Positions 6,979-19,902 of a stretch of 21,758 bases of DNA are shown piece by piece. The notes under the pieces were generated by a model, which was not told the origin of the DNA, searched no databases, and saw only the letters and a list, made by a program, of their open reading frames with translations. The position numbers were made by a program, and so were the translations under genes. How positions within the stretch are numbered: position 1 is the first letter of the stretch; every line of letters starts with the position of its first letter. Source of the DNA: a virus; the IMG/VR virus record IMGVR_UViG_3300033998_000286, positions 1 through 21,758 of that record; one strand, given 5' to 3'.

Positions 6979-7412
6979 TCATCCCTCCTTGGACAGGACC
7001 TTAATGGCCACGTCAACCCAGTCGCTTAGTTCCGTAAGGGGCAATGATAGCCAATACGAAACCGGGGTAAAGGCGCTCATAGCCAGCCGGAGGCTAACCT
7101 CCATGAGCACGCGCCGAACGCTTGCCCCGAATCCTAGCCGAGCAAAAAATTCTGCACGGTCATAGTCACGGTCGTGAAATCTTTGGCCGGCAGGGATAAT
7201 ATCAGGTCAACCGGCACCTTGCCTGCCTTGGCAGCCACGAGGGCCAGATAAGTTTTGGACAGCTCGGGAACAGGAGAATTATCTCCCAGGGCTCTAGTCT
7301 GGTTAGAAGCCGAGATGAGATCTTGTCCGGTCAGGGCTTCAAGGTCCAGCTCAATCTCTGGATACTCTTTGCCGTCATAGATGTGAGGCTTCGCAAAAAC
7401 GATCCTTTCCAT
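6979..7412 (-). CDS. E+E': Tail assembly chaperone gpE+E', made by -1 programmed frameshift
   Basis: Translation starts at the gpE ATG (7410-7412), follows gpE for 90 codons to the TTG at 7143-7145, slips back one base on T TTT TTG, and continues for 54 codons in the -1 frame to a TGA at 6979-6981, giving 144 residues. The extension runs from ARLGFGASVRR to VDVAIKVLSKEG and contains SYWLSLPLTELSDWV, the L-P-L-x-E-L-xx-W pattern of E'-type extensions. P2 makes a gpE+E' of very similar size from the same heptamer. The E' frame has no start of its own and no independent ribosome-binding site, and it overlaps the zero-frame stop, as expected. It is likely to act as a chaperone on the tape measure protein encoded next. 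Confidence 0.88.
7134..7412 (-). CDS. E: Tail assembly chaperone gpE (P2 gpE / Mu gp41-like)
   Basis: A 92-residue product of the unshifted frame. MERIVFAKPHIYDGKEYPEI and the EIELDLEALTGQDLI segment match the gpE/tail assembly chaperone pattern, in which a short strand-rich N-terminus leads to a 'D-L-x-x-L-T-G-x-D' turn. The length is almost that of P2 gpE (91 residues). ATG at 7410-7412 has AAAGGAG nine bases upstream; a GTG two codons earlier would be too close to it. The gene ends in ...QNFLLG and a TAG, with the slippery heptamer five codons before the stop. It lies between the tube gene and the tape measure, the conserved position for these chaperones. Confidence 0.88.
   Translation of the reverse strand: MERIVFAKPHIYDGKEYPEIELDLEALTGQDLISASNQTRALGDNSPVPELSKTYLALVAAKAGKVPVDLILSLPAKDFTTVTMTVQNFLLG
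7143..7149 (-). other. Slippery heptamer T TTT TTG for -1 ribosomal frameshift
   Basis: On the minus strand the zero frame reads AAT TTT TTG CTC GGC TAG, which gives the X XXY YYZ heptamer T TTT TTG in the right phase. A -1 shift here opens 54 further codons. The same heptamer is used in P2 gene E. No strong downstream hairpin is obvious by eye; a weak structure cannot be excluded. Confidence 0.88.
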
Positions 7413-7439
7413 CAACACCGGCTCCTTTCATGGTATAAT
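7412..7439 (+). promoter_or_regulatory. Extended -10 promoter on the plus strand for the antisense membrane protein
   Basis: The -10 box TATAAT is perfect at 7434-7439, with TGG directly before it (extended -10, TGn). A weak -35 candidate TCAACA lies at 7412-7417, 16 bases upstream, across the start codon of gpE. A transcript would start near 7446. This promoter faces the opposite way to the tail operon, so it is unlikely to serve it. Confidence 0.75.
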
Positions 7440-7460
7440 CAGAAAAAAGAGGTGATTCGG

Positions 7461-7733
7461 GTGGGAATCCTGGATATTTTAATAAGAGTGTTCGTCTGGG
7501 GAATCTTTTTAGCTTTTTCGTGGATTCCTGGCATTATGGTAGGAGTCCTCCTAGAAATGACAATTGGCCGCTGGGCTTACTGGCCTGGATTTCTTCTCGG
7601 CGTTGCCATATTCCTAATCTACATCGCCGAAAATTTCTATGGCGGCTCACCCAAGAACAAAAGCAGCCCTTCTCCTTTTGCAGCGGCTCGCCGCGTACGA
7701 GCAGTCAAGAGATACTTAAGCCCAAAGAAATGA
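7461..7733 (+). CDS. Small two-helix membrane protein in antisense orientation (moron candidate)
   Basis: A 90-residue protein starting at GTG 7461, with AAAGAGGTG six bases upstream. It is the only gene on the plus strand. Two strongly hydrophobic segments are visible, about residues 7-31 (ILIRVFVWGIFLAFSWIPGI onward) and 41-56 (PGFLLGVAIFLIYIA), separated by a short EMTIGRW turn. The C-terminal 30 residues are polar and basic (ARRVRAVKR, ending SPKK), so N-in/C-in topology is likely. It has its own promoter upstream and a terminator immediately downstream, an autonomous cassette inside the late tail operon. I do not recognise the family. By position and form it is a lysogenic-conversion or superinfection-exclusion candidate, which is inference only. 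Confidence 0.82.
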   Translation: MGILDILIRVFVWGIFLAFSWIPGIMVGVLLEMTIGRWAYWPGFLLGVAIFLIYIAENFYGGSPKNKSSPSPFAAARRVRAVKRYLSPKK

Positions 7734-7742
7734 ATGTTCCAA

Positions 7743-7776
7743 GGCCCGCTGGTATTTCCAGCGGGCCCTAATTTTT
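7743..7776 (+). terminator. Rho-independent terminator of the antisense membrane gene
   Basis: A perfect 10-base-pair GC-rich stem (GGCCCGCTGG at 7743-7752, CCAGCGGGCC at 7758-7767) with a 5-base loop is followed by CTAATTTTT. The U-tract is only on the plus-strand transcript. Read from the minus strand the hairpin has no following T run, so it should not stop the late operon. It ends four bases before the tube gene's stop codon region. Confidence 0.88.
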
Positions 7777-7779
7777 GCA

Positions 7780-8298
7780 TCATAGACCCAGAGCTTGCCG
7801 GACCTCCTTCAAATAATCTTTGCCGTTGATCCGGCAGATGTAGTTATACTTGTCTATTTCAACGATTTCTTTGCCGTCAACGCTGACTTTGAGATATATT
7901 ACCTCGAACTCGTTTGAGGCATCAGCAGTAGCCCCAACTTCAAACTTCCCGAGAGAGGTAGTCTTAGGAATTCCCCGAACACTTGCCCTAAGAGACGAAG
8001 TGCGGTATTCTCCCGTAGCTGCGTCATAAAGTTGAGCCGCACCCCTGAAATCAAGATTGTGAGCTCGTGGTTCGGCGAGCCCAATAGTTGGCTTGACGAC
8101 AGTCCGCCAGTTAATGGTACATGTCATGCTGCCGTAATGACCTAGAACGGGGCTTTCAACTTCGCCAGCGATACCGGCGCCCTTAACCGTCTCGGTCATG
8201 GCTTCGATCTTAGGCAGCTCGACATCGGCAATCCCCAAGAGGTCCGTCCCATCCTCATAGACGCGGAAGTTGATCAGCTTCTCCGGTACCGGATTCAT
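7780..8298 (-). CDS. FII: Major tail tube protein (P2 FII family)
   Basis: A 172-residue protein, the same length as P2 FII. It starts MNPVPEKLINFRVYEDGTDL and has the family's LLGIADVELPKIEAMTET segment, then GAGIAGEVESPVLGHYGSMT, and a late YLKVSVDGKEIVEIDKYNYI. It polymerises into the inner tube under the sheath. The ATG at 8298 has AAAGGGGG upstream and lies just after the sheath stop. The next tail gene on this strand is gpE, but an oppositely oriented gene cassette of about 350 bases separates them. Identification is confident. Confidence 0.92.
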   Translation of the reverse strand: MNPVPEKLINFRVYEDGTDLLGIADVELPKIEAMTETVKGAGIAGEVESPVLGHYGSMTCTINWRTVVKPTIGLAEPRAHNLDFRGAAQLYDAATGEYRTSSLRASVRGIPKTTSLGKFEVGATADASNEFEVIYLKVSVDGKEIVEIDKYNYICRINGKDYLKEVRQALGL

Positions 8299-19013: not shown

Positions 19014-19041
19014 AAAACAAGAGCCTCGCGGCTCTTGTTTT
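19014..19041 (-). terminator. Strong rho-independent terminator after the lipoprotein gene
   Basis: A perfect 12-base inverted repeat (AAAACAAGAGCC / GGCTCTTGTTTT) with a 4-base loop, GCGA (GNRA) on the minus strand. The lipoprotein stop codon (19040-19042) overlaps it. A T run ends the stem on both strands, so it may work in both directions, but only minus-strand genes are present nearby. Confidence 0.88.
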
Positions 19042-19720
19042 ATTGAGTCAATTTCACACTCTCCAACCCGCTAATTACAATCATTTGCCCCTCTTTAAGC
19101 GAGACTTTTACTTTTTCTACCCCTAAGTCTCCACCCAGTATTTCATTCACCACTGGTATCTCGCCATTATACACAACAAAGTTGCCGCTTCCTTTAGCTG
19201 TAGTAACAACATAGCTTCCGGCTGGAACGTCCCTGCCAACTAAATGGTTGCCTGAGGGAAGTGTCGTTTTCAACTTAATTTCCGCCGGCTTGAATAGAAC
19301 CTTGTTTATGCCGGATATCTGAATTGTATTGCCTTCGGATAGATCAACTTCGAGTTTAGTTATACCAATTTGATTACTGGCGTTGTCCGTAAGTATTTCG
19401 TTTACTACGGGCATTTCGCCATCATAGACGACAAAATTCCCCGTTCCTTTAAGGCTTGTAATCTCATATCTGCCAGGAACTACGTCTTCCCCTACCACAA
19501 ACTCTCCCGCGAATAATTCGACTTCCTTTGCAGTGTTTACGTATTTCTTATTAGCTTCCGGTTGCTTCTGGGCAACATTGGCTCCTGCCTTTCCCCCTGC
19601 TTTTTCTTCTGTTTTTGCCGTCTGTTGGGCGGGCGCGCTACTACTCCCACAACCTACCACATTTGCAACGATCAGCAAAACCACAAGAAACAAGCACAAC
19701 AATCTTAAGGCCTTGTTCAT
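19040..19720 (-). CDS. Secreted lipoprotein with two tandem copies of one domain (moron candidate)
   Basis: A 226-residue protein starting at the ATG at 19718-19720, with AAAGGGGGGAG just upstream; an upstream extension is open but lacks a signal. Residues 1-24 are a lipoprotein signal peptide: MNK, a hydrophobic run (LLCLFLVVLLIVANVV) and the lipobox VVGC with Cys24. A polar linker (SSSAPAQQTAKTEEK, A/K/Q-rich) covers 25-65. Two related domains follow at about 71-145 and 157-225: both have a V-P-[GA]-x-Y-x-[IV]-T start, a GxGNFVVYxGExPVVNEIL core and an I-x-[IV]-SG end. The protein is probably anchored outside the cell membrane. I do not recognise a named family. Its placement as a terminated single-gene unit between regulator and terminase suggests an accessory role such as superinfection exclusion. 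Confidence 0.88.
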   Translation of the reverse strand: MNKALRLLCLFLVVLLIVANVVGCGSSSAPAQQTAKTEEKAGGKAGANVAQKQPEANKKYVNTAKEVELFAGEFVVGEDVVPGRYEITSLKGTGNFVVYDGEMPVVNEILTDNASNQIGITKLEVDLSEGNTIQISGINKVLFKPAEIKLKTTLPSGNHLVGRDVPAGSYVVTTAKGSGNFVVYNGEIPVVNEILGGDLGVEKVKVSLKEGQMIVISGLESVKLTQ

Positions 19721-19747
19721 GAAACTCCCCCCTTTAAAGGGAGATCT

Positions 19748-19775
19748 TCTATAAAAAGAACAAAATTCCTTCCAA
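19748..19775 (-). promoter_or_regulatory. Candidate promoter close to the lipoprotein gene
   Basis: Minus strand: -35 TTGGAA (19770-19775) and -10 TATAGA (19748-19753), 16-base spacer, each with four of six consensus bases. The start would be 25-30 bases from the lipoprotein ATG. Moderately likely only. Confidence 0.4.
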
Positions 19776-19902
19776 GCCATTAAAGCTGCTCTTGCTTTTG
19801 GAAACGCCAATTCTAAGCCACGCCCTCGCACCCGGCCCCACCCCTGCCACTACGGTGCGTTCACCCCTCCGGCTTGCGCCGGCATCCTGATAGTGCGCAA
19901 TA

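Follow-up and report, generated by a model that had tools for sequence, protein, structure and literature searches.

An optional antisense cassette for a small membrane protein in the tail operon of Bacillota phages: a candidate superinfection exclusion moron with copies at CRISPR-Cas loci

Why would a phage keep, in the middle of its tail operon, a single small gene that is transcribed the opposite way? We have addressed this question in the window, i.e., the 21,758-nucleotide stretch of the IMG/VR viral record IMGVR_UViG_3300033998_000286. All of its recognized head, tail and packaging genes are on the minus strand, and a plus-strand cassette lies at the junction between the genes of the tail tube and of a gpE-type tail assembly chaperone, antisense to both. 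Comparison with relatives revealed an intact, conserved promoter-gene-hairpin unit that occupies a fixed antisense slot, is present only in some of the phages and encodes a fast-evolving small membrane protein. From this anatomy and by analogy, both of which support it well, we read the unit as a reverse-strand moron whose product most likely acts in superinfection exclusion (probability about 0.6).

A promoter-gene-hairpin unit at the tail tube/chaperone junction

The elements of the cassette and the two flanking genes are the following:

7412-7777, plus strand: the cassette overall (promoter, ribosome-binding site, 90-codon gene and GC hairpin with T-tract)
7412-7439, plus strand: promoter of the sigma-70/A type, TCAACA (7412-7417), 16-nucleotide spacer and extended -10 TGG-TATAAT (7431-7439), read directly
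about 7447-7454, plus strand: ribosome-binding site AAGAGGTG, read from the sequence
7461-7733, plus strand: small membrane protein gene of 90 codons, from the GTG start at 7461 to the TGA stop at 7731-7733, supported by homologues, substitution rates and AlphaFold2 helices
7743-7777, plus strand: GC hairpin with T-tract, arms GGCCCGCTGG-TATTT-CCAGCGGGCC (7743-7767) followed by CTAATTTTTG
7134-7418, minus strand: flanking gpE-type tail assembly chaperone (Pfam Phage_TAC_7, 1.2e-6; phrog_3140, 1.9e-30)
7780-8298, minus strand: flanking tail tube of the P2 FII type (Pfam Phage_tube, 2.2e-49)

The extended -10 promoter, the ribosome-binding site and the 90-residue gene described in an initial annotation of the window were all found by direct reading, and a mechanical scan recovered this promoter, with 10 of 12 positions matching and the TG in place. 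The terminator with its T-tract also stood, since the scan returned the same hairpin of 10 pairs, nine of them G-C. The cassette had further been described as a self-contained unit, which holds for the promoter and the gene but not for the hairpin. Hairpins of 7 bp or more were found 3' of the tube gene in 12 of 13 cassette-bearing relatives and also in 19 of the 26 that lack the cassette. Their presence after the tube gene in most cassette-less relatives indicates that the terminator is probably older than the cassette, which would have adopted a pre-existing 3' hairpin of the tube gene.

Using the tube protein as search bait we collected 66 viral and 25 genomic loci. Apart from a contig identical to the window across ca. 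1,170 bases (L002), homologues of the gene were found at the same antisense junction in ten other phages or prophages (L004, L006, L007, L008, L009, L022, L024, L072, L118 and L122; L007 is also the Carboxydothermus islandicus locus L071 and L022 is also L073, each counted once). The open reading frame (ORF), its start and the TATAAT recur at the identical position in independent phages, and 16 of 20 upstream regions contained an exact TATAAT, where Markov shuffles predicted 1.44. The initial annotation had named random substitutions and stop codons among relatives as evidence that would speak against a functional cassette; we looked for them, and the outcome did not refute the cassette. The ratio of nonsynonymous to synonymous substitution rates (dN/dS) ranged from 0.13 to 0.44 in the tail-operon and giant-spacer (see below) pairs with countable dS: 0.14 for L006/L115, 0.21 for L007/L118, 0.13 for L009/L022, 0.22 for L004/L122 and 0.44 for L008/L072. 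Judged from these values, purifying selection acts on the reading frame.

Many relatives (L005, L011, L012 and others) have a short gap alone at the junction, so the gene is optional; at this one site the cassette is present in some close relatives and absent from others. Where present, it diverges faster than its neighbors, as would be expected for an arms-race gene: identity to the window protein was 51% in L006, against 80% for the tube and 78% for the chaperone, and 39% in L004, against 79 and 69%, respectively. The locus thus has what the initial annotation had proposed in calling it a moron, namely a gene between structural genes that has a promoter and a terminator of its own (the hairpin being probably common with the tube gene), and it is autonomous, antisense, optional and under purifying selection. 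Viral scans with other family members found the gene at no phage position besides the tail slot, and none of 50,697 records of isolated phages encodes the protein.

Three other loci (L048 5577-5828, L095 4965-5225 and L015 5556-5777) have the identical anatomy, and the small membrane ORFs in their antisense slot look unlike the window gene, with homology to it that is marginal or undetectable. The slot may therefore take different genes, and it would represent a fixed antisense position able to hold dissimilar small membrane proteins.

The carriers are temperate contractile-tailed phages of Bacillota, as far as their gene content indicates. An integrase was found in three of six cassette-bearing records and several homologues sit in bacterial genome assemblies, so that the carriers appear to be temperate where this could be tested; the window stretch does not include a lysogeny region and its own temperateness is deduced from these relatives.

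The product is predicted to be a membrane protein both by hydropathy and by AlphaFold2. The two membrane helices of the initial annotation were approximately right, although the AlphaFold2 model (mean predicted local distance difference test score 82.5) has three in the hydrophobic part (residues 3-19, 21-35 and 37-60), the first two split near I22-P23-G24, plus a basic helix at 72-86. In an alignment of 17 members G24/G28 and G43/G47 are conserved, making two GxxxG spacings, and a basic SPF...RR tail is conserved in one subgroup. The initial annotation did not recognize the gene family, and our database searches likewise matched the 90-residue protein to no named one: there was no Pfam match above the cut-off, none in NCBIfam or PADLOC, only weak ones in PHROGs, and none with E <0.3 by Foldseek against BFVD and PDB. 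The Pfam and PHROGs matches of the family were scattered, weak and inconsistent among members (the best, MFS_1 at 1.5e-5, in one of the 17) and were set aside as generic membrane similarity. The protein therefore appears to lie outside the named families.

Copies at CRISPR-Cas loci and giant spacers

Beyond what the initial annotation had foreseen, copies of the gene were found away from tail operons, at CRISPR-Cas loci (clustered regularly interspaced short palindromic repeats and associated genes), one of them as a giant spacer. A profile search (E <=0.001) of 399 genomes from the phylum of C. islandicus (G007) gave matches in 11, of which one, in G132, was judged spurious and discarded as a non-homologue because it falls inside a 453-codon frame, which we take to be MurJ-like. 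Searches at the class and order levels added few further homologues; all three genomes examined from the class of C. islandicus had them. The copies adjoining cas genes and the giant spacer are located as follows:

L116 9513-9833, L117 9404-9694 and L119 9493-9699: homologues of the window gene adjoining type I-B cas6 or cas8b, in three genomes
L115 9355-9831 (interval 124354-124831 of G135:C21): 477-bp giant spacer with the whole cassette and the end of the tube gene

In G105 and G143 the gene and the cas6 of a type I-B operon are divergently oriented, the G143 copy being ca. 0.75 kb from a CRISPR array. The two probably derive from one ancestral event and, with three synonymous and four other changes between them, are too similar to decide on domestication. 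G277 has a 68-residue form ca. 175 bp upstream of cas8b-cas7-cas5-cas3, and G451 a short gene fragment at the end of a CRISPR array. Elsewhere, a complete lone homologue sits between argH and an HD-domain gene in G175 (L120 9926-10213), with no prophage genes found near it; the G217 copy belongs to a prophage remnant whose chaperone gene is truncated, and G407 and G492 have a fragment and a pseudogene. Non-tail copies thus cluster at type I-B CRISPR-Cas loci, which account for about four of the eight independent non-tail loci. If, as we assume, ca. 3% of a genome is near CRISPR, the chance of this would be of the order of 1e-4, a rough and post hoc figure.

The clearest case is the array of G135, with 419 repeats (109,711-141,696) adjoining Cas4, Cas1 and Cas3 genes. 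The 477-bp interval is bounded at both ends by perfect array repeats and is 89.6% identical, full length and colinear, to phage L006 (5419-5896). Nearly all spacers of the array measure 35-44 nt, so its length is exceptional, although intervals of 902 and 159 bp are also present. Fifteen ordinary spacers match the cassette phage group (shuffled spacers, 0 of 738), and CCN lies 5' of the match in ten; the source of the giant spacer in L006 likewise has CCA at the 5' side, i.e., the expected protospacer adjacent motif (PAM), with TGG past the other end. An artefact of degenerate repeats was ruled out by the colinearity with the phage and the perfect repeats on both sides; misassembly is unlikely. 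Recombination of ordinary spacers with phage DNA was also considered but seems less probable than spacer acquisition, given the PAM at the 5' end. The 902-bp giant spacer (G135:C21 129102-130004, in L115) matches phages L156-L163, and its start, placed on these phages, follows CCA in the seven closest. Inside it are the 3' end of a phage gene and an apparently complete ORF of ca. 82 codons, a relative of which lies in G105:C1 (in L135) between a degenerate repeat at 1,924,650 and the array start at 1,926,257.

The link with CRISPR can be read in two ways: the gene may be kept, as a defense gene, among others of its kind, or the arrays may tolerate prespacers of great length and have taken up phage DNA passively. 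A bolder proposal is that bacteria gain whole phage genes through CRISPR adaptation: oversized prespacers with self-sufficient cassettes, in this case a putative exclusion protein gene with promoter and terminator, would enter arrays as giant spacers and then be expressed as a second defense, and the cas-adjacent genes of G105, G143 and G277 would descend from such captures. We regard this as doubtful. Three observations keep it standing: the G135 capture is intact, flanked by repeats at either end and with a PAM that matches; another small phage gene, again with CCA as its PAM, sits in the second giant spacer; and G105 has a relative of the latter gene between CRISPR repeats. The dN/dS of 0.14 for the giant-spacer gene against its phage counterpart reflects evolution in phages before capture as much as anything later, and is therefore no demonstration of domestication. 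A full-text literature search, of incomplete coverage, found no account of oversized or gene-bearing CRISPR spacers. With a complete cassette held in the array as a 477-bp spacer, and the right PAM at its source, one may ask whether CRISPR adaptation can capture working genes.

What the cassette may do

Superinfection exclusion could proceed as follows. With the late phage genes repressed in the lysogen, the host sigma-A RNA polymerase would transcribe the cassette, and the protein would reside in the cytoplasmic membrane, its basic tail facing inward. There it would most likely block the entry of related phages, acting on DNA passage via the tape-measure or tail-tube conduit; upon induction, late transcription of the minus strand would cross the cassette and switch it off. 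We favor this role because position and promoter are conserved, the frame is under purifying selection, presence is optional and carriers have integrases; because the predicted membrane helices keep the two glycine pairs while the protein diverges faster than its neighbors; and because the non-tail copies cluster at defense loci. Three points weigh on the other side: sequence and fold comparisons gave no relation to a known exclusion protein, small membrane proteins serve many functions, and the CRISPR link could be passive capture. If exclusion is correct, the cassette would supply a candidate family of exclusion proteins without named relatives. Its carriers are phages of Bacillota that are thermophilic and anaerobic, and the exclusion systems of such phages have, to our knowledge, been little studied.

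The best surviving alternative is a membrane protein of lysogenic conversion that serves host fitness, membrane stress or transport instead of phage exclusion, the gene being still a moron. The lone copy by argH, with phage genes not found nearby, and the absence of similarity to defense proteins would suit such a role, but the rapid divergence and the CRISPR-Cas clustering fit defense better, and we consider it unlikely, albeit worth keeping in view. The transcript, or convergent transcription, might matter instead of the protein, reducing the leakiness of the tail operon in the lysogen, and a strong antisense promoter does face late transcription at this junction. Selection on the reading frame and the persistence of the gene away from tail operons make this quite improbable, and the unit lies between the chaperone and tube genes, so that its transcript would overlap neither. 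A holin, antiholin or other lysis protein would share the small size and the roughly two membrane helices. We reject it as more improbable still on context: the promoter opposes the late operon, no lysis gene adjoins it in the window, lone copies are kept in bacterial genomes and no holin model matched. Finally, motif counts in the region exceed those of shuffles only modestly (promoters 4 against 1.7, terminators 5 against 2.7), as an ORF with promoter and terminator by chance would predict, but conservation across many phages and dN/dS well below 1 refute that explanation almost completely.

Two other features of the minus strand were observed in the window. Where the chaperone gene ends (ca. 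7134-7160) there is a T-run (TTTTTTG), also present in many relatives, which is likely a -1 frameshift site of the P2 E/E' type. At 19040-19831, adjoining the terminase genes, a putative lipoprotein with VVGCGSS near the N-terminus and two similar halves matches phrog_32160 (function unknown), and is possibly a second accessory gene.

Comparison with known systems

The records of P2 and HK97 annotate morons at comparable places, reverse-strand ones included, in line with the initial annotation. Superinfection exclusion is the role of the gp15 moron of HK97 (Cumby et al., 2012, cited in PMC10883804). Like the cassette, gp15 encodes a small predicted membrane protein, is a moron among tail genes, adjoins the tail chaperone and tape measure genes and has an annotated terminator at its 3' side; it differs in lying on the tail-gene strand, in its 62 residues and in tail type and host, and hhalign gave a probability of 0.5% for its alignment with the cassette protein, outside gp15-family homology. 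The "reverse moron" gene 23 of HK97 is antisense inside the tail operon with its own terminator, but at another position, and comparison with the cassette found no sequence relation.

P2 has the same type of tail module, with FII tube and E chaperone with -1 frameshift, and according to its record fun(Z) is a nonessential reverse-strand gene among the tail genes that acts in lysogenic conversion and blocks growth of T5. However, fun(Z) lies between G and FI, encodes ca. 529 residues and is not a small membrane protein, and P2 has a short gap alone between FII and E. In Gram positive hosts, Sie2009 of Tuc2009 and Ltp of TP-J34 are small membrane-associated prophage proteins that block DNA injection (PMC10883804). 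The cassette protein resembles them in being small, prophage-encoded and, by prediction, membrane-associated. Sie2009 and Ltp have other genome positions and are other types of protein. HK97 gp15 and P2 fun(Z) are best regarded as probable analogues of the cassette by position and proposed function, with relatedness not claimed.
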